Shown here in pieces: positions 4,905 to 18,517 of a stretch of 59,411 nt of DNA. Under the pieces are notes generated by a model. The model saw only the letters and a program-made list of their open reading frames with translations, had not been told where the DNA came from and made no database searches. Made by a program: the position numbers and the translations under genes. The stretch lies in NCBI RefSeq assembly GCF_000787815.1, contig NZ_BBPO01000015.1, positions 11,763 to 71,173 on the forward strand. The letters run 5' to 3'. This DNA is from Streptacidiphilus neutrinimicus. GTDB taxonomy: Bacteria > Actinomycetota > Actinomycetes > Streptomycetales > Streptomycetaceae. Position 1 is the stretch's first letter. Each line of letters starts with the position of its first letter.

Positions 4905-6998
4905 TCACAGCACCAGCTCGGGGTGGAGCGAGGCCACCGTCCACATCTGGCGGCGGCGCGCCGCCAGCACGGTGCCGGCCAGCGAGGCGACCAGGAACGC
5001 GGCGAGGACGGCCGTGCCCTGCCACACCACGGTCAGGTCGCCCCCGCTGATCAGGCGGCGCAGGCCGTCGACCACCCAGGTCATCGGCAGGTAGGGGTGG
5101 ATCGTGCCGAAGAAGCCGGGGCTGGTCTGAACGGGGTAGGTGCCGCCCGCCGAGGTCAGCTGCAGCATCAGGATCGCCAGGCCGATGACCCGGCCGCGCG
5201 TGCCGAAGACGGCGTTGACGCACTGGAGCACCGCGGCGAAGCTCGCGGAGGTCAGCAGCAGGAAGCCGATCGCCGCCGCCGGGCGGGCCAGGTCCAGGCC
5301 GAGCGCGAAGTGCAGCACCGCCAGCAGCGCCCCGACCTGCGCGACGCCGATCGCGACCGCCGGCAGCCAGCCGGCCAGCGCGGCGCGCCAGGAGGGGATG
5401 CCCGCGGCGAGCAGCCTGCTGTTCAGCGGGCGCAGCAGCATGTAGGCGACCATCATGCCGACCCACAGCGCCAGCGGGATGAAGTAGGAGGACAGTCCGG
5501 TGCCGTAGTTGGCGGCCTTGTTGAGCGTGCCGAGGGCGAGCTGCACCGGGTCGCTCATCACGCCGGTCGTGTTCGCGCGGTCCTGGGCGCTCAGGTCCGG
5601 GATCTTCGCGGCGCCGTCGTGGAGGGAGCCCGCCAGCTGGTCCGAGCCGCCCGCGAGCTTGTAGAGGCCGGAGTCGAGCCGGTCGGCGCCGGAGGCGAGG
5701 GTGCCCAGTCCGTCGTCCAGGCGGTGGGCGGCGGTGGAGAGTCGCGCGCTGCCCGTCGCGATGCCGCGGACGCCCGCGTTCAGCTCGTCGATCTTCGCCA
5801 CCTGCGCGTCGACCTGGTCGGCCAGATGCGGCGCGTCGGCTGCGAGCTGGTTCGCGTAGCCGCGCACCGTGCCCGCGTCGGAAGCCAGTTGGGCCAGCTC
5901 GGCCTTGTTCGAGGCGACGGCCTGGTCGACCGAGGTGGCGATCGCGACCGTCCGCTGCGACGCCTGGACGGCGGTCCGCAGCGCGACGCACTCGGCGGCG
6001 CTGCCGCCCGGCGCCGCCCCGGCCTGCTGCCCGGCCTGGCACTGCTGGGCGTAGACCTGCTCCAGCTGCGCCTCGGCGGCCTTGGCGTCCGCCACGGCCC
6101 GGGCCGAGTCGGCGGGCAGCGAGGTGGCGATCTGCTGCACGGTCCCGGCAGCCGTCGCGACGGCCTGCGCGGCCCGCTGGATGTCCCCGGCGCGGCTGCG
6201 CAGCGTCGGCGTCAGCTTGTCGGTGACCCCGTGCACCATCTGGTCCAGCTGTGCCGTCCCGGCAGCGGCCTGGGCCGCACCGCTGTGCAACTGGTCCAGC
6301 CCGCCCGCGAGTTGGCCGCTGCCGGCCTGGGCCTTGCTCAGGCCGTCGCTCAGCTGCTGCGCCCCGCCCTGCGCGGTGTGCGCGCCCTGAGCCAACTTCC
6401 CTGCTCCGCCCGCCGCCTGGAGGGTCCGGTCGTGGATGTCGCCGAAGGAGACGTAGATCTGGTCGAGATAGCCGCGCACGGCGCTCGCCGAGCTGGCGGC
6501 GCGGATCTCCGAGAAGGCGGACTTCGCGATGATGCCGCTCAGGTAGCTGTTCGAGTCGTTGCTGCGGGCCTGGAGCAGGCCCGCGACGGGGTGGTCGCTC
6601 CCGCCCGTCGCGATCTTCGCGGTGAAGTCGGCGGGGATGGTGAGCGTCATGTAGTAGTCGCCCTTGCGCAGCCCCTGGTCGGCGCGGGCGGCGCTGACCT
6701 CGTGCCAGTCGAAGGTGTGCCGGTCCAGCAGCTCCGTGGTGAGGTCGCGTCCGGCGTTCAGCTGCTTGCCGCCCACCTGGGCGCCCCGGTCCTGGTCGAC
6801 GATCGCGACCGGCAGGCGGTCGAAGTGGCCGTAGGGGTCCCAGAACGACCAGATGTAGAGCGCGCCGTAGAGCAGCGGCAGCAGGGCCACCGCGACGACG
6901 GCGGCGCGCGGCAGCGAGCCGCGCCGGAACCGGCGCAGCTCGAGCGAGCCGAGGGAGAGGGCGCGCAGGGGGCGCCGGCGGGCCAGCTTGTCACTCAT
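4905..6998 (-). CDS. YhgE/Pip-type ABC-2 membrane protein
   Basis: A 697-aa membrane protein. One N-terminal membrane segment (about residues 30-50, AAVVAVALLPLLYGALYIW) is followed by the family signature WDPYGHFDRLPVAIVDQD. Next comes a large extracytoplasmic domain of alanine-rich helical repeats (G-x-x-x-L-x-x-G patterns, residues about 190-460), then five or so C-terminal membrane segments of the ABC-2 permease type (about 480-690). Relatives include YhgE and phage infection protein Pip. Many actinobacterial members pair with a small ABC ATPase and a TetR gene, as here. It overlaps the ATPase gene by 8 nt (6991-6998), so the two are translationally coupled. Export of a hydrophobic or toxic compound is inferred. 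Confidence 0.88.
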   Translation of the reverse strand: MSDKLARRRPLRALSLGSLELRRFRRGSLPRAAVVAVALLPLLYGALYIWSFWDPYGHFDRLPVAIVDQDRGAQVGGKQLNAGRDLTTELLDRHTFDWHEVSAARADQGLRKGDYYMTLTIPADFTAKIATGGSDHPVAGLLQARSNDSNSYLSGIIAKSAFSEIRAASSASAVRGYLDQIYVSFGDIHDRTLQAAGGAGKLAQGAHTAQGGAQQLSDGLSKAQAGSGQLAGGLDQLHSGAAQAAAGTAQLDQMVHGVTDKLTPTLRSRAGDIQRAAQAVATAAGTVQQIATSLPADSARAVADAKAAEAQLEQVYAQQCQAGQQAGAAPGGSAAECVALRTAVQASQRTVAIATSVDQAVASNKAELAQLASDAGTVRGYANQLAADAPHLADQVDAQVAKIDELNAGVRGIATGSARLSTAAHRLDDGLGTLASGADRLDSGLYKLAGGSDQLAGSLHDGAAKIPDLSAQDRANTTGVMSDPVQLALGTLNKAANYGTGLSSYFIPLALWVGMMVAYMLLRPLNSRLLAAGIPSWRAALAGWLPAVAIGVAQVGALLAVLHFALGLDLARPAAAIGFLLLTSASFAAVLQCVNAVFGTRGRVIGLAILMLQLTSAGGTYPVQTSPGFFGTIHPYLPMTWVVDGLRRLISGGDLTVVWQGTAVLAAFLVASLAGTVLAARRRQMWTVASLHPELVL

Positions 6999-7755
6999 CG
7001 TCGTCGCCCTCCGTGTCGTTCGCGTCGTCCGCCTGCGGTACGGCCGCGGGTTCGGCGTGGGCGGCCTCGATGGGCGTGGGTTCGGCAGGCGTGGGTTCGG
7101 CGGGCGCGGGTTCGCCGAGGTCGACGACCACGTCGGCCCAGGCGCCCGCCGGGGCCTGTCGGGTGGTGGCCAGCACGGTGAGCCCGGCGTCGGCGAGGGA
7201 GCGCAGCGTCGCCCAGGCCGCGTCGCGCTCGGTGTCGGAGAGGCGGTCGCCGACGTCGTCGACGGCGAGCACGCGCGGACGCCCGATCAGCGCCGCCGCG
7301 AGGGAGGTGCGGAACGCCTGCGGCGCGGAGAGGGTGTCCGCCCGCAGCGGCAGCTCGGCCCGGGTCAGTCCGGCCGCGTCGATCGCGGCGGTGACGCGCC
7401 GGTGCGCGCGGCGTCCGTGCGAGCGCAGCAGCAGCCGCTCGGTCAGGTGCTCCTCGACGGTCAGGCCGCCGTCGAGGTCGTTGACCCCGGCGACCGCGCC
7501 GAGCGCGACCAGCTTCCGCACCGCCGCGGCCCGCCGCGGCAGCGGCAGCCCGGCGACGCTCGCCTTTCCGCCGGTGGGACGCATCCGGCCCGCGACGCTC
7601 AGCAGCAGCGAGGTCCGCCCGGACCCGCTCGCCCCGACCAGGGCCACCAACTGCCCAGGTTCACCTTTGAAACTGACGCCCTGATAGACGTCTCCGCGCG
7701 GCCCCCGCAATGACAGCTCCGCCACCGCGACGGGGGCGCCTTCGTAGTCGCCCAT
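6991..7755 (-). CDS. Degenerate ABC transporter ATP-binding protein
   Basis: A 254-aa nucleotide-binding-domain protein. The Walker A reads GASGSGRTS (about residues 41-49), with Arg in place of the invariant Lys. The signature region is LSAPQ instead of LSGGQ. Walker B is LAVDD, with Asp where the catalytic Glu normally sits. A long acidic/proline tail (APAEPTPAEPTP ... EGDDDE) follows the domain. ATP hydrolysis may be weak or absent. ATG at 7755 follows a GGAGGGG tract; a GTG at 7770 is possible. It is the first gene of the operon with the YhgE-type permease and TetR gene, directly behind the palindromic operator. Confidence 0.82.
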   Translation of the reverse strand: MGDYEGAPVAVAELSLRGPRGDVYQGVSFKGEPGQLVALVGASGSGRTSLLLSVAGRMRPTGGKASVAGLPLPRRAAAVRKLVALGAVAGVNDLDGGLTVEEHLTERLLLRSHGRRAHRRVTAAIDAAGLTRAELPLRADTLSAPQAFRTSLAAALIGRPRVLAVDDVGDRLSDTERDAAWATLRSLADAGLTVLATTRQAPAGAWADVVVDLGEPAPAEPTPAEPTPIEAAHAEPAAVPQADDANDTEGDDDE

Positions 7756-7782
7756 CCCCGCCCCTCCCACTGCTCCGCAGTC

Positions 7783-12105: not shown

Positions 12106-13137
12106 TCAGAGCAGCTCTTCCAGGTAGTTCGGCTGGTCGATGGGCAGCGCGCCCTCCGGGCGGTAGCGGAGGGTGCTCGCCTCCCAGGCGAAGTAGCCGC
12201 GCATCCAGTCGCCCATGCCGTCGACGTAGCGCAGCACCGCTGCGCCCTCCTCCCTGCTGCAGCCGAGCCCCAGCACCGTGCCGGGGATCTGCTCCGCCAG
12301 GGCGAAGAACTCGTCCACCATCCCTTGTGCCTCGTCGCGGACCAGCGCGAACGCGCCCTCGCGGCTGATGCCGCGGTCCCGCTGGGTGATCACGGCGAGG
12401 TTGTAGACGTCCCCGCGCGGGGCCTCCTTGGCGTAGGAGTAGACGTCGTTGTTGACCGCGGGGGCGTCCCCGGCGAGCCGACGCATCAGCGTCAACTGCG
12501 GGTTGTGGTACGCGGTCGCGGGCACCTCGCCGAGGACGCGTTCGACGAGGTCGAGGACGGTGTCGACGCCGGACGCCCCGCGGCGCAGCACCAGGTAGGC
12601 CGCCCGGCTCGGGCGGGAGTCGGGCAGGGCGCGGCCGAGCGCCTCGCTCGGGTGGGCCATGAAGTAGCCCTCCCAGTGGAACGCCGCCCGGGCGCGCCAG
12701 CGCGCGGACATGCCCTGGCTGCCGCGACGCCACAGGTCGGCGAAGGCCGACTCGACGGGGGAGGGGTTCTCCGGCGCGCGGCCGGTGTGCAGGGTGGTGA
12801 TCAGCGGCGCGCACACGCGCGCCACCTCGGCGGGACGCTCGCCGCGCTCGCCGTCGAACTGGTCGTCGAAGAGGAAGTAGAAGGCGCACTGGTCGACCGC
12901 GAGGCACAGGTCGGCCAGATCCGCGTCGGGAAAGCTGGTCGCGGCCAACTCGGGGATGGACCAGCGGTCGTAGAGTAGCTGCGCGCGCTCCTCGCGCAGC
13001 ATGCCGTGGGCTCTGAGCCACTGGAGGTTGTGTCGTGCGGCGGCTTCCAGCAGTGGGTTGCGCCGGAGCGGGCCGGGGATGCGAATGACCTCCCCGGTTC
13101 CGTGCGTCTGCTCCTGATGGTGCATCAGTTCATGCAT
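12106..13137 (-). CDS. Class I terpene cyclase (sesquiterpene synthase type)
   Basis: A 343-aa terpene synthase. The metal-binding motif DDQFD lies at residues 91-95, the pyrophosphate sensor Arg near 185-186, the NSE triad N230/S234/E238 (NDVYSYAKE) and the RY pair R324/Y325 near the C-terminus. All catalytic elements are intact and the length is typical of bacterial sesquiterpene cyclases acting on farnesyl diphosphate. The product cannot be named. ATG at 13137 is chosen for the GAGGAGG 8 nt upstream; the frame continues to 13299 without a ribosome site. No prenyltransferase or P450 gene is adjacent, but a large ATPase/LuxR-type regulator is divergent from it. Confidence 0.92.
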   Translation of the reverse strand: MHELMHHQEQTHGTGEVIRIPGPLRRNPLLEAAARHNLQWLRAHGMLREERAQLLYDRWSIPELAATSFPDADLADLCLAVDQCAFYFLFDDQFDGERGERPAEVARVCAPLITTLHTGRAPENPSPVESAFADLWRRGSQGMSARWRARAAFHWEGYFMAHPSEALGRALPDSRPSRAAYLVLRRGASGVDTVLDLVERVLGEVPATAYHNPQLTLMRRLAGDAPAVNNDVYSYAKEAPRGDVYNLAVITQRDRGISREGAFALVRDEAQGMVDEFFALAEQIPGTVLGLGCSREEGAAVLRYVDGMGDWMRGYFAWEASTLRYRPEGALPIDQPNYLEELL

Positions 13138-13188: not shown

Positions 13189-13242
13189 GAACCGATTACG
13201 ACGGTAGCTGAACCGATCACTCCTGTTGAGTAATCGATCGGT
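13189..13242. promoter_or_regulatory. Repeated GAACCGATYAC boxes upstream of the terpene cyclase
   Basis: GAACCGATTAC (13189-13199) and GAACCGATCAC (13210-13220) are direct repeats exactly 21 bp apart, about two helical turns. GATCGGT (13236-13242) is an inverted partner of ACCGATC (13212-13218). They sit in an AT-rich patch 50-105 nt upstream of the cyclase start, between it and the divergent regulator gene. An activator binding array is likely; the binding protein is unknown. Confidence 0.5.
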
Positions 13243-13414
13243 CATATGCTCAATTATCCAACAGAGTTGGCGTATCTGATCTGTCTTGAGCATTGCCAAA
13301 GGATCCTCCGATGCGCCAGCGCGAGGCCTCTGCGCTGGTTAACCTCGAAGTCGGGGGTGGGCCCAAGCGAGGCCGGCCGGCGGGTCAAGAGAACGGGCAG
13401 GAGCGGAGCGAGCC

Positions 13415-16336
13415 GTGGACGATCGACAGCTCTACGAGCGCGAGGAACCGATCGGCCTGGGCGCACGCGCCCTCGCCCGGCTGAAGGCGGACGTCGCCGC
13501 GGGCGACACCAGTCCCGGCGGTCTGCTGCTCTACCGGGGCGCGGCCGGCTTCGGCAAGACGAGCCTGCTGGGCCGCCTGCGCGCGGCGGTCAACACCGAC
13601 CGCGGCGCCCAGATCCTGCTCTTCGCCAGGGCCACCGAACAGCAGCAGGGCGCGCCGTTCCACGTGGCCCGTAGCCTGCTGCAACCCGCCCTCGCGAACC
13701 TGCACGAGGCGGACCGCCGGGAGATGTTCGGCGGCTGGTACGACATCGCCGCGCCGGCCCTCGGCCTCACCCCCGCGGAGGCCGGCAGCCCGGCCGACCC
13801 GACGGGTGTGCAGGAGGCGCTCAGCTGGGTCATGACGCAACTGGCGGTGCGCCAAGGGCCCTTGCTGGTGGTGGTCGACGACCTGCACTGGGCGGACGCG
13901 GAATCGAGCCAGTGGCTCGCGAGCTACGTCGGCCAGATTCAGCACTTGCCGATGCTGGTCGCCCTGGCGTATCGGAGCGACGAGCTCGAGCCTTCCCTGG
14001 ACGACCTGCTGCTGCGCGAGGTGCGCGAGCTCGGCACCCGCGGCCACAGCGTCGAGTTGCAGAAGCTCTCCCCGAACGCCGTCGAGGCGATGGTCCGCAC
14101 CCGCCTCGGCGAGGACGCGGACGACGTGTTCTGCCGCACCTGCTGGTCCATCACCAACGGCAACCCCTTCTTCGTCACCAGCCTCATCGACCGCCTGAGC
14201 GAGCAGGACGTCCCGCCGATCGAGGAGAGCCAGGACCAGCTGCGCGCGCTCGCCGCGCTCAGCGGCGCCCGCGACATCGGCCGCCGCCTCGAACGGCTCG
14301 GCACCGACGTGCAGCGCACCGCCTTCGCCGCCGCGGTGCTGGACATCCCGTTCGACCTGGAGCTGATCTCCCGGGTCGCGGGCCTTCCGTTCAACTAGGC
14401 GCAGACGGCCGTCGACAAGCTGGTCGGCGACCAGATGCTCACCCGTTCCGGGCACGAGTTCCACTTCTCGCACCCCACCGTGGCCAGCGCCGTCTACCAG
14501 TCGATCACCTTCCCTGCGATGCGCACCAGCATCCACAGCAAGGCGGCCGACGAGGTGATCGCCTCGGGCAGGGGCGGCATGGCCGCGGCCTCCCGCCACC
14601 TGATCGAGCTCTACCCCGACGACAACCCCACCGTCGTGCACCAGCTGCGGCAGGCCGCCCACGAGCACCTCGCCATGGGCGCGCCGGACGCCGCCAAGCG
14701 CTGTCTGGAGCGCGCGCTGCGCGAGCCCCCGGCGGAGGAGGAGATGGCGGAGGTCCGCTACGAGCTGGGCTGCGCGGTCATGCTGCGCGACCCGGACCTG
14801 ACCGTCCGCCAGCTGCAGATGGCGCTCGACGAGGTGCCCGGCCTGGAGCCGGAGCACCGGCTGAACGCCGTGCTCCGGCTCGGCCAGGCGCTCACGCACA
14901 GCAACCGCGTCACCGAGGCCGTCGAGCTGACCCGCGAGGAGGTGGCCCGGATGCCGGACGGCCCCGCGCGCACCAGGCTGCAGGCGGCGTCCTTCATGTT
15001 GCGGCTGCTGCGCCGCAACGACCCGGCGGGGCGCGAGACCTCGCGCGAGCTGGAGCTGCTGGTCCGGCAGCAGACCGGACGCACGGATCCGGAGGCGCGC
15101 TCGGTCCAGGTGCTGCGCGCCTGGGATCTCACGATGCGGGGCGAGAGCTCGTCCGAGGCGCTGGCCTTCGCCGATCTCGGCATGGACAGCGGCCGTCCGG
15201 TGGAAGGCCTCGGCTGGACCAACCAGGTCCTGGGCTTCGAGATCCCGGTCATGCTCGGCGTCGCCTACCTCTACAACGACCGCCTCGACCGCGCCCGCAG
15301 CCTCTTCATGGACGCGGCCTACGAGTTCGAGATGATGGGTTGGAGCGGCGGCCACCTGGGCTTCGCCAACTTCTTCCAGGCCCTGGTGATGTTCCGTCAG
15401 GGCAAGCTGGAGGACGCGGCCAAGGCGTTGCGGCCCACCCTGCTGCGCAAGGCCAAGGGGCTCGGCCCCGGCAACCCGCTGCTGTGGGACGTGGTCGCGG
15501 TCCTCTGCGACATCATGCTCGCCCAGGGGCAGGCCGACGAGGCCGCCAAGCTGGCCGAGGAGTACGGCATCCGCCCCGGCCAGTACCCGCCCGCGGCCGT
15601 GCTGCCGGACGCGCCCGCCCTGGTCGGCCGCCTGTTGCTGGCCCAGGGCCGCCGGGACGAGGCGGTGGCCGAGCTCGAGCGCCACGGCCGCGAGCTGGAC
15701 GAGCGCGGCTGGGAGAACACCGTCTGGTCCCCGTGGATGAGCACGCTCGCTCTCGCGCTGGCGGACACCGACCCGGAGCGGGCACGCTCCCTGGCCGCGG
15801 ACGCGTACGGCCGCGCCCTGCGGTCCGGAACGAACTCCGCCGAGGGCATGGCCCTGCACGCCTGGGCCAAGGTCGCCGAGCCCGCGATGGAGCTGGACCT
15901 GCTGCGCCGGGCCGTCTCCGCGCTCGGCCAGTCGCCGATCGCCTTCGAGCACGCCTCCGCCCTGGTCGACTACGGCGCGGCCCTGCGCCGGGACGGTCGG
16001 CTGCGGGATGCGGTGGCCGCCCTGGAGCAGGGCCTGGACATCGCCCGCGACTGCGGCGCGACCAGCCTGGCGGAGCGTGCCCGTCGCGAGCTGAAGGCCT
16101 CCGGCGTCAGCCCCCACCGCCTGCGGCCGATGCCATCGCGCGACCTCACCGCACTGCAGCTGCGGGCCGCCCAGCTGACGGTCGGGGGCAAGGACCGCAA
16201 CGAGGTGGCGGAGTCGCTGTCCGTCAGCCCCGCCAAGGTCGACGAGCTCCTGGCGGCGGTCTACCGCACGCTGGGCACGGACGCGAAGGGCCTCGCCGAG
16301 ACGTTGAAGGACGACCCCGGGGTCGATTCGGAATAG
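13415..16336 (+). pseudogene. LAL-type ATPase/LuxR regulator interrupted by an in-frame TAG
   Basis: One reading frame of 974 codons is broken only by a TAG at 14396-14398 (codon 328). Both sides continue the same protein: N-terminal AAA ATPase with Walker A GAAGFGKTS (residues 42-50) and Walker B LLVVVDDLHWAD, then after the stop AQTAVDKLVGDQ ... FHFSHPTVASAVY, a long TPR-like helical region, and a C-terminal divergent LuxR-type HTH (LTALQLRAAQLTVGGKDRNEVAESLSVSP). The stop context TTCAACTAGGCGCAG is one C-to-T change from Gln. GTG at 13415 has GGAGCG upstream. If translated as two pieces, 13415-14398 gives a 327-aa ATPase fragment and the first ATG after the stop (14435) a 633-aa piece. A recent nonsense mutation, sequencing error or readthrough are the options. 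Confidence 0.85.
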
Positions 16337-16398
16337 GTTGGATCGTGTCTCCGTTGTGAGCACAGGCCGAGAACCGGCCGGAAAGGCGGAACCACGAC

Positions 16399-16776
16399 AT
16401 GGCCACGATCGAGCTGACCAAGGACAACTTCAACGAAATCGTCGACAAGAACGACTTCGTTCTGATCGACTTCTGGGCGTCCTGGTGCGGTCCGTGCCGG
16501 CAGTTCGCGCCCGTCTACGACAAGGCCTCCGAGGAGAACCAGGACCTGGTCTTCGCCAAGGTCGATACGGAGGCACAGCAGGAGCTGGCCGCCGCGTTCG
16601 ACATCCGGTCGATCCCGACCCTGATGGTCATCCGCGACCGGACGGTCATCTTCGCCCAGCCGGGCGCGCTGCCCGCCCCGGCGCTGGCCGAGGTGATCAC
16701 GCAGTCCCGCGCCGTGGACATGGACGAGGTCCGGGCCAAGGTGGCGGAGCAGCAGGCCAAGCAGTCCGAGGCCTGA
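16399..16776 (+). CDS. trxA: Thioredoxin
   Basis: A 125-aa thioredoxin-fold protein with the redox motif WCGPC at residues 29-33 and the cis-proline loop RSIPTLMV. The C-terminal extension of about 15 residues (AVDMDEVRAKVAEQQAKQSEA) is slightly longer than in E. coli TrxA. It reduces cytosolic protein disulfides using thioredoxin reductase, which is not encoded here. GGAACCACGAC precedes the ATG. It follows the interrupted regulator by 62 nt and converges with a TetR gene. Confidence 0.93.
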   Translation: MATIELTKDNFNEIVDKNDFVLIDFWASWCGPCRQFAPVYDKASEENQDLVFAKVDTEAQQELAAAFDIRSIPTLMVIRDRTVIFAQPGALPAPALAEVITQSRAVDMDEVRAKVAEQQAKQSEA

Positions 16777-16794: not shown

Positions 16795-17409
16795 TCACCG
16801 GCCGCGCGCGGCGAAGCTGCGCTGCGGCCGGTACTCCACCAGCGTGAGCGCCAGCTCGACGTGCCGGTCGACCAGCGCCCCGAGCGTCAGCGCGCCGTCG
16901 GAGCGGTACCACTGGGCGACGGCGTTGCACATCGCGATGACCCCGCGCCGGGCCTCGTCCGGGTAGGGGGTGTGGAACTCCCCTGAGGCGATGCCGGCCT
17001 CGATCGGGTCGCGGAACAGGTTGGTGGCCTCCGCCTGTCGCCTGCTGTACAGCTCCAGGCGCTCCGCCTCCAGGCTGCGTTCCTCCAGCAGCAGGATGTT
17101 GCTGCGCGCCGCGTGCTCCGCGCGGAACCGGGTGGTGGCCGCGACGACCGCGCCGAGCCGGTCCGCGGGTGCGGCCTGCTCGCCGCCGACGGAGTCGAGC
17201 TCGGCCGCGACCGAGGCGAAGTACCGGTCCATGCCCTCGTCCAGCAGCGCGTGCAGCAGCTCCTGCTTGCCGGAGTAGTAGTGGTACATCGCGGAGAGGC
17301 TCATCCCGGCCCGCGCGGCGATGTTCCGGATCGAGGCGCTGCCGAAGCCCCGCTCGGCGAACTCCTGCCGGGCGGCTTCGAGCAACGCGGTCTGACCGGC
17401 AGGGCGCAT
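16795..17409 (-). CDS. TetR-family regulator (KstR2/FadR-like)
   Basis: A 204-aa protein beginning MRPAGQTALLEAARQEFAE, with a TetR HTH (GFGSASIRNIAARAGMSLSAMYHYYSGKQELL) and a C-terminal domain that resembles lipid/steroid-degradation regulators with CoA-ester ligands. It is divergent from the DUF35 gene at 17560. Two copies of a CGATCGTTC-containing palindrome lie in the intervening 150 bp, making it the probable regulator of both genes. Ligand identity is inference. Confidence 0.85.
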   Translation of the reverse strand: MRPAGQTALLEAARQEFAERGFGSASIRNIAARAGMSLSAMYHYYSGKQELLHALLDEGMDRYFASVAAELDSVGGEQAAPADRLGAVVAATTRFRAEHAARSNILLLEERSLEAERLELYSRRQAEATNLFRDPIEAGIASGEFHTPYPDEARRGVIAMCNAVAQWYRSDGALTLGALVDRHVELALTLVEYRPQRSFAARGR

Positions 17410-17559: not shown

Positions 17560-17973
17560 ATGGCGAGCACGGCTGTGACGGCGAAGGCCGCGACGAAGGC
17601 CGCGACCGCGAAAAGCCCGGCCGAGGTCTACCGCGAGGGGCTGGCGCTCGGGGAGCTGCGCTACCAGCGGTGTCAGTGGTGCTCGACGCGGTTCTGCAGC
17701 GTCAGCCTGCTCTGCGCCACCTGCGGCGGCCCGGACTTCGTCTGGGAGCGCAGCAGCGGACGCGGGCGGATCCACGCCCTGCCGCAGGCGGTCGGCCCCG
17801 ACGACTGGCAGGAGCGCACCGCGGTCGTCGAGCTGGACGAGGGCTTCCGGGTGCGGGCCCGGCTCGCGCCGACTCCCGCCCACCGGATCTGGCGCGGCGC
17901 GCCGGTGCGGCTGGAGGTCGCCGAGACGGGTGACGGATCACTGCGTCCGGTCTTCCGCCCGGTGGCGGCCTGA
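17560..17973 (+). CDS. DUF35 zinc-ribbon/OB-fold acyl-CoA-associated protein
   Basis: A 137-aa protein starting MASTAVTAKAATK. The N-terminal rubredoxin-like zinc ribbon is formed by C-x2-C and C-x2-C pairs (CQWC ... CATC), and the OB-fold domain follows (residues ~70-135). DUF35 proteins usually partner a thiolase-like enzyme in acyl-CoA or hydroxymethylglutaryl-CoA-type reactions, but no thiolase gene is beside it here. GGAGGAGG upstream fixes the ATG at 17560. It is divergent from the TetR gene and probably repressed by it. Confidence 0.88.
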   Translation: MASTAVTAKAATKAATAKSPAEVYREGLALGELRYQRCQWCSTRFCSVSLLCATCGGPDFVWERSSGRGRIHALPQAVGPDDWQERTAVVELDEGFRVRARLAPTPAHRIWRGAPVRLEVAETGDGSLRPVFRPVAA

Positions 17974-18124
17974 CCTGGGGTCCGCTGCGGCCGCCCGCCG
18001 GTCGAATGCCCGTTTCCCGACCTTCGTCCGGTTGAAGCGGCATCCTTGGATCTGTCACTCTCGGCACGTTCGGCGCGTCTCGTCGCACGAGCACCATCAG
18101 TCCGTGGCTCATCGAGGGATCGCC

Positions 18125-18517
18125 ATGTCCGCACGCAGCGCCTCCGCGCTCATCGCCGCCTCCGTTCTGGCGGCCACCGGCCTCGCGGTGGCGAGCGCCG
18201 GGCCGGCCTTCGCCAAGTCCTCCATCGCGATCCAGGTCAGCGCGCGCAGCGTCACGCCGGGGCAGCGCATCGGCCTCATCGCCTACGGCGCCTCCGACGA
18301 CTTCGGCGGCAACCCCGTCCGCCTGTGCCTGGACGAGCGCGTCGGCCACGGGCCCTGGCGCGCCGTCGGCTGCGGGCGGGAGGGAGCGCTGCGTCTGGCA
18401 GTGCACCCCGCCCACCCCGGAACGCTGGCCTTCCGCTCCCAGTTGGTCGGCCGCAACGGGCACGGCCGCCTCGTCGTGGACCGGACCTCCCAGGTCGTCA
18501 CCGTGCAGGTGCGCTGA
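18125..18517 (+). CDS. Small secreted protein of unknown function
   Basis: A 130-aa protein with a clear signal peptide (residues 1-30: MSARSASALIAASVLAATGL, cleavage near GPAFA). The mature part reads as a small beta-sandwich (VSARSVTPGQRIGLIAYG ... LAFRSQLVGRNGHGRLV) with a Cys pair (RLCLDE ... GCGRE). No family is recognised. GAGGGA precedes the ATG. It stands alone between the DUF35 gene and the iron-uptake operon. Confidence 0.82.
   Translation: MSARSASALIAASVLAATGLAVASAGPAFAKSSIAIQVSARSVTPGQRIGLIAYGASDDFGGNPVRLCLDERVGHGPWRAVGCGREGALRLAVHPAHPGTLAFRSQLVGRNGHGRLVVDRTSQVVTVQVR

Follow-up and report, generated by a model that had tools for sequence, protein, structure and literature searches.

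An in-frame amber codon in a LAL regulator gene of Streptacidiphilus neutrinimicus: very probably a recent null allele, and one case of recurrent loss beside a sesquiterpene synthase

Results

The divergent LAL/terpene synthase locus

The window analysed here, a 59,411-nt stretch of Streptacidiphilus neutrinimicus DNA, lies within a 119-kb contig of a draft genome assembly (8,418,219 nt in 184 contigs). It carries a gene for a regulator of the large ATP-binding LuxR (LAL) family, interrupted by a single amber codon and facing away from a terpene synthase gene. The features of the locus are as follows.

12106 to 13137, minus strand: class I sesquiterpene synthase; frame open to 13299, start taken as ATG 13137 (uncertain)
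13238 to 13258, no strand assigned: conserved element of 21 nt, TCGGYCATATGYTCAAKWATC, within the divergent spacer; a candidate for an operator or promoter element
13415 to 14398, plus strand: 5' part of the LAL gene, from the GTG start to the amber stop; 327 aa; STAND/AAA_16 ATPase with Walker A (GxxGxGKT) and Walker B (VVDD)
14396 to 14398, plus strand: in-frame amber codon TAG, codon 328; CAG (glutamine) in six of six near orthologues
14399 to 16336, plus strand: 3' part of the LAL gene, with 645 codons before its own terminal TAG; encodes TPR-like repeats and, at the C-terminus, a LuxR-type helix-turn-helix (HTH)
16399 to 16776, plus strand: thioredoxin, a conserved downstream neighbour in the genus
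16795 to 17409, minus strand: TetR-family regulator, a conserved neighbour in the genus

The terpene synthase was assigned by Pfam (PF19086, E 1.7e-32). Its sequence contains DDQFD and NDVYSYAKE, which we take to be the two metal-binding motifs of terpene synthases. The nearest solved relative is germacradien-4-ol synthase (PDB 5i1u, E 4e-78 over residues 72-380), but avermitilol and pentalenene synthases match the window enzyme too.

The gene order, with the synthase divergent from the LAL gene and followed by thioredoxin and by TetR on the opposite strand, was found in all 13 other Streptacidiphilus genomes. In g14, a second genus, 67 of 70 genomes have the synthase next to the LAL gene and divergent from it; the same stretch also holds an aldehyde dehydrogenase (48 genomes) and an aldose epimerase (67 genomes). 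Because this divergent pairing is so consistent, a regulatory link between the LAL protein and the terpene synthase is likely on comparative grounds, and the tie that the earlier note drew between regulator and adjacent cyclase is borne out to that extent. The 21-nt element of the spacer is present in 10 of 14 genus spacers and nowhere else in 221 kb of genus loci, and it is conserved between loci whose LAL proteins share only about 50% identity. None of 57 g14 spacers contains it with up to four mismatches allowed. An inverted repeat at 13223-13264 was set aside, since by eye its right arm is not conserved in relatives, and a promoter and terminator scan returned no hits.

The interrupted frame and its product

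Translation of 13415-16336 on the plus strand gives 974 codons with two stops, the TAG at codon 328 and the terminal TAG at 16334-16336; the internal stop stands where the earlier note had placed it. This is a real coding frame and not a chance one, because the 95% identical frame of S. melanogenes is open throughout. A 992-codon antisense ORF (13385-16363, minus strand) spans the entire LAL gene; codon-position GC and homology identify the plus strand as coding.

By architecture, the product is a LAL regulator. The N-terminal ATPase is recognized by Pfam (AAA_16, E 7e-15), and residues G45, G47, K48, T49, D155 and D156 are invariant in 26 aligned orthologues. The middle of the protein matches TPR families, among them TPR_MalT with an E-value of 3e-7 but below its curated cut-off; MalT is the archetype of LAL regulators. 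Modelled from the 26-orthologue alignment, the intact S. melanogenes protein (mean pLDDT 85) is mostly helical over residues 367 to 895. In a Foldseek search with this whole model, the STAND-TPR protein 6mfv ranked first and the maltose-system structure 8bob seventh, both at low TM-scores (0.17-0.19 by query length).

The C-terminal HTH was identified by fold and not by Pfam, which reported no GerE domain in the window protein at E 0.001 and gave one for a single orthologue out of four (E 0.005, below the cut-off). A model of the last 94 residues, made from the sequence of the window itself (mean pLDDT 69, with the HTH helices at 81-89), superimposes on the DNA-binding domains of NarL (1je8; Z 11.2, rmsd 1.6 over 65 residues) and GerE (1fse; Z 9.9, rmsd 1.9 over 65). 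The Foldseek list for this model consists mainly of LuxR/NarL-type regulators, with a best E-value of 0.03. Thus the HTH that had been placed after the stop stands as a LuxR/NarL-type fold, but not as a Pfam-detectable domain. The companion claim that protein similarity runs straight through the stop holds as well: six orthologues align continuously across it, with AAA_16/NACHT families before and TPR families after. The window protein shares with LAL regulators an N-terminal STAND ATPase, a long TPR region and a C-terminal LuxR/NarL HTH, and differs from them in an HTH too divergent for Pfam GerE and in being truncated in this genome.

Two further arrangements of LAL genes were seen. In the window genome (G000), a LAL paralogue of 895 aa without an HTH lies at G000:C184:284360-287053, followed by a gene of the uracil-DNA-glycosylase superfamily, and in a third genus (g6) two LAL genes stand in tandem (G102, G060, G078, G114 and G131).

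The amber site in near relatives

We compared the site in six near orthologues, about 95 to 67% identical to the window gene: those of S. melanogenes, S. anmyonensis, S. pinicola, S. jiangxiensis, G009 and G004. The codon is CAG (Gln) in all six, in agreement with the proposal that a glutamine codon had turned amber through a CAG-to-TAG change. Four of the six frames (S. melanogenes, S. pinicola, G009 and G004) are open throughout. The LAL gene of S. anmyonensis (G002) has lost 1 nt near codon 260; that of S. jiangxiensis (G006) has gained 5 nt near codon 755, an insertion that resembles a tandem duplication.

Against three relatives, dN/dS of the window gene is 0.16-0.18 on either side of the TAG. 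A three-taxon count gives the window branch 19 nonsynonymous and 48 synonymous changes (N/S 19/48) against 137/434 in 34 control genes, which shows no relaxation. The similar dN/dS on the two sides of the stop and the lack of relaxation relative to the 34 controls therefore indicate that the loss is recent, and the gene was recently intact, as the earlier note had supposed. With five taxa, the window branch has more amino-acid changes (N/S 13/28) than two sister branches (6/44; Fisher p = 0.02 when the TAG codon is included). On this count, selection on the gene may have been relaxed over a period exceeding a single culture passage. The extra amino-acid change is weakened by the control, since it appears with five taxa only and not against the 34 control genes with three taxa.

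Decoding of the amber codon

Two possibilities that had been raised for the stop, its suppression and the separate production of two halves, found little in their favor. An Rfam search of the window genome gave 71 tRNA matches; with ARAGORN run on the loci covering them, none has a CUA anticodon. One low-scoring match that ARAGORN did not call has, by eye, a TTT anticodon, and an odd tRNA with an eight-base anticodon loop contains no CTA in that loop. Release factor 1 (prfA) is present in the genome, above its curated cut-off. Suppression is thus unlikely, because no CUA tRNA was found among the 71 matches, RF1 is present and the gene's own terminator is TAG. A TAG in the HTH-less paralogue at C184 was considered as a second internal stop; it proved to be the end of that 895-aa gene and is therefore no sign of recoding. 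As for separate halves, the first downstream start is the ATG at 14435, and four of the six near orthologues have ATC in its place.

Extra tRNA-like genes, possibly derived from a mobile element, occur at G000:C149:824-978 and C88:19927-20078. Among them is the tRNA with the eight-base anticodon loop, next to which lies a further tRNA-Pro(cgg); two short Leu-type tRNAs form a tandem pair.

Breakage of the LAL gene in two genera

The new observation of this study is that many relatives carry independent lesions in this regulator and yet keep the enzyme gene whole. The LAL gene is broken in 5 of 13 genus genomes, the window included, and in 12 of 70 g14 genomes, or 17 of 83 overall. No two of the 17 lesions are alike and none is shared between species. 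Besides the window TAG, the genus lesions are the 1-nt deletion in S. anmyonensis, the 5-nt insertion in S. jiangxiensis, a TGA at codon 167 in G003 (tryptophan in the related G005) and a frameshift around codons 815-850 in G001. The g14 lesions comprise four nonsense codons (G101, G086, G148 and G160), seven frameshifts (G170, G065, G150, G026, G176, G190 and G178) and one 5' loss, in G056, which is without the 5' part of the LAL gene and without the terpene synthase. The other 11 of these 12 broken genes have an intact synthase partner. A single lesion was detected in each broken gene, G056 being the 5' loss and G170 locally messy. The broken LAL gene of G160 is 97% identical in DNA to the intact one of G180.

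Homopolymer slippage or phase variation was considered as a common source and rejected. The lesion contexts are mixed (1-nt deletions, 5-nt and 8-nt insertions, a 10-nt deletion and nonsense changes), and there is therefore no common switch. Furthermore, the earlier note had named a natural split of the gene at this point in relatives as evidence against its reading, and none of the 13 genus and 70 second-genus genomes examined is split there.

These counts cover all 70 g14 genomes with a listed match, a survey in which badly decayed copies would be missed. G013 was left out because its assembly is 76% complete and both its LAL and its terpene synthase gene are frameshifted; with it included, the genus counts become 6 of 14 for LAL and 1 of 14 for the synthase. 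The G013 LAL gene has a +2 frameshift that is reversed by -2 about 150 nt later, and the G013 frameshifts are probably errors, since the assembly is only 76% complete. In G107 and G038 the stretch fetched contains no terpene synthase, that of G107 ending at a contig end. Four g14 terpene synthases that end 6-10 codons before the query were not scored as broken. G198, initially a partial match, is full length with no lesion against closer queries.

Control genes

None of the terpene synthase genes is broken (0/13 in the genus and 0/67 in g14, or 0/80). The same is true of thioredoxin and TetR (0/14 each in the genus), of the HTH-less LAL paralogue (0/14 copies in 13 genus genomes) and of the g14 aldehyde dehydrogenase (0/48); the g14 aldose epimerase is broken in 2 of 67. 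Pooled, 17 LAL genes against 2 control genes are broken in 79,810 and 90,804 codons, respectively (p = 1.3e-4; p = 2.3e-4 without the window), so that breakage per codon is about tenfold higher in LAL than in the controls. Tested against the terpene synthase alone, with length corrected, the excess gives p = 0.009, and against the HTH-less paralogue within the genus p = 0.016.

A wider syntenic check followed 13 to 39 S. melanogenes genes per genome through six genomes and treated the window's genes in the same way; the clear mid-gene lesions all fell in LAL, in three genomes. The check flagged 21 gene/genome rows. Five correspond to the LAL lesions in these three genomes, 13 are over-extended starts as judged by eye, and the other three are gene 6991-7770 in two genomes, with late stops, and ORF 17930-18517 in one.

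The excess of LAL loss over its conserved neighbors is clear. Over the average dispensable gene, as represented by published genome-wide pseudogene counts, it is moderate. Pseudogenes make up about 4% of genes as the mean of nine of the 11 Streptacidiphilus rows in Table 1 of PMC7601586. If this rate is tripled for gene length, LAL breakage in the genus is only mildly unusual: 5 of 13 gives p = 0.02 and 4 of 12, the window left out, gives p = 0.06.

Discussion

Together, the results lead us to conclude that the window gene is very probably a recent null allele, or young pseudogene, of a LAL regulator in a conserved divergent pair with a sesquiterpene synthase, and one case of recurrent loss. 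A frame-breaking lesion that is absent from the orthologues (TAG against CAG in six of six) is what a pseudogene is expected to display, and the stop itself is that of an ordinary young pseudogene. With no suppressor tRNA found and with RF1 present, translation would end after 327 residues, and the 3' part of the gene (14399-16336) is probably not translated. The predicted fragment would keep the ATPase and be without the sensor repeats (TPRs) and the DNA-binding HTH. Such a fragment could not be expected to bind the shared spacer, because it has no DNA-binding domain. Characterized LALs are activators. By analogy we infer that the intact protein activates the terpene gene; if so, this gene would go uninduced in the present strain. 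The amber codon is one instance of a regulator lost repeatedly by unrelated mutations while the enzyme gene is retained.

Other readings of the stop were weighed against the null allele. That the strain in fact has the glutamine codon and an intact gene, the TAG being a sequencing or assembly error, deserves some thought where one base (14396) in a single draft assembly of 184 contigs decides the matter. Nevertheless, a substitution inside a contig is not a typical error of short-read drafts, and here, on the assumption of such reads, the change lies within 119 kb of continuous sequence. Unrelated LAL lesions also occur in further assemblies, including single-contig ones (G001, G101, G160, G170 and G178), while nearly all control genes of these loci are free of lesions, which leaves error improbable. 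We consider it more improbable still that a suppressor tRNA or programmed readthrough lets ribosomes pass the TAG and yields some full-length regulator. The purifying dN/dS that persists in the 3' part would suit readthrough, but recent loss accounts for it equally well, and the tRNA complement, the presence of RF1, the use of TAG as the gene's own terminator and the lack of a stop at this site in any of the relatives examined all count against it. Equally slight is the chance that two separate proteins are made, one from the ATPase half and one from the TPR-HTH half. The ATG at 14435 does start a 633-codon frame; it is, however, not conserved, no strong ribosome-binding site is seen before it by eye, and none of the relatives examined is split here.

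The remaining alternative concerns why the gene was lost. Loss of the LAL regulator could be transiently favored, either in nature or within culture collections, so that null alleles repeatedly arise and die out; this goes beyond the null-allele explanation, yet is compatible with it. It fits 17 broken genes in 83 genomes with a single lesion each and no lesion shared, intact orthologues close by (G160 against G180) and an intact partner enzyme. Relaxed selection on a dispensable regulator, however, predicts much the same, and the excess over the genome-wide pseudogene share is only moderate. Both relaxed selection and transiently favored loss fit the data, and we regard selected loss as possible but doubtful. 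We can suggest, tentatively, that this conserved Streptomycetaceae module undergoes source-sink dynamics, in which long-term selection would keep the regulator while null alleles would be transiently favored, in nature or on domestication, leaving fresh, independent knock-outs and silent terpene genes in a large proportion of representative strains.

Whatever its cause, the pattern of repeated loss matters more than the stop. In two genera, about one in five of the genomes examined has a broken copy of a regulator that seems to be devoted to a widespread terpene synthase. The literature surveyed, which was mostly titles and abstract openings, names neither the terpene synthase/LAL module nor its repeated loss. 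If the pattern is general, a dead regulator may be the reason why many terpene genes of reference strains are silent, and strain choice or complementation of the regulator would reveal terpene products. The LAL/synthase pair also lends itself to testing how a regulator comes to be lost repeatedly while its target stays intact.

As in other bacterial pseudogenes and young null alleles, a single nonsense lesion interrupts an otherwise conserved frame. In contrast to these, the same syntenic regulator is hit here independently in many species while the partner enzyme is spared. Recurrent loss of a regulator in nature is familiar from lasR in Pseudomonas. There, likewise, a regulator is repeatedly inactivated while the source allele stays intact; the LAL protein belongs to a different regulator family, and its loss is seen here in genome comparisons.
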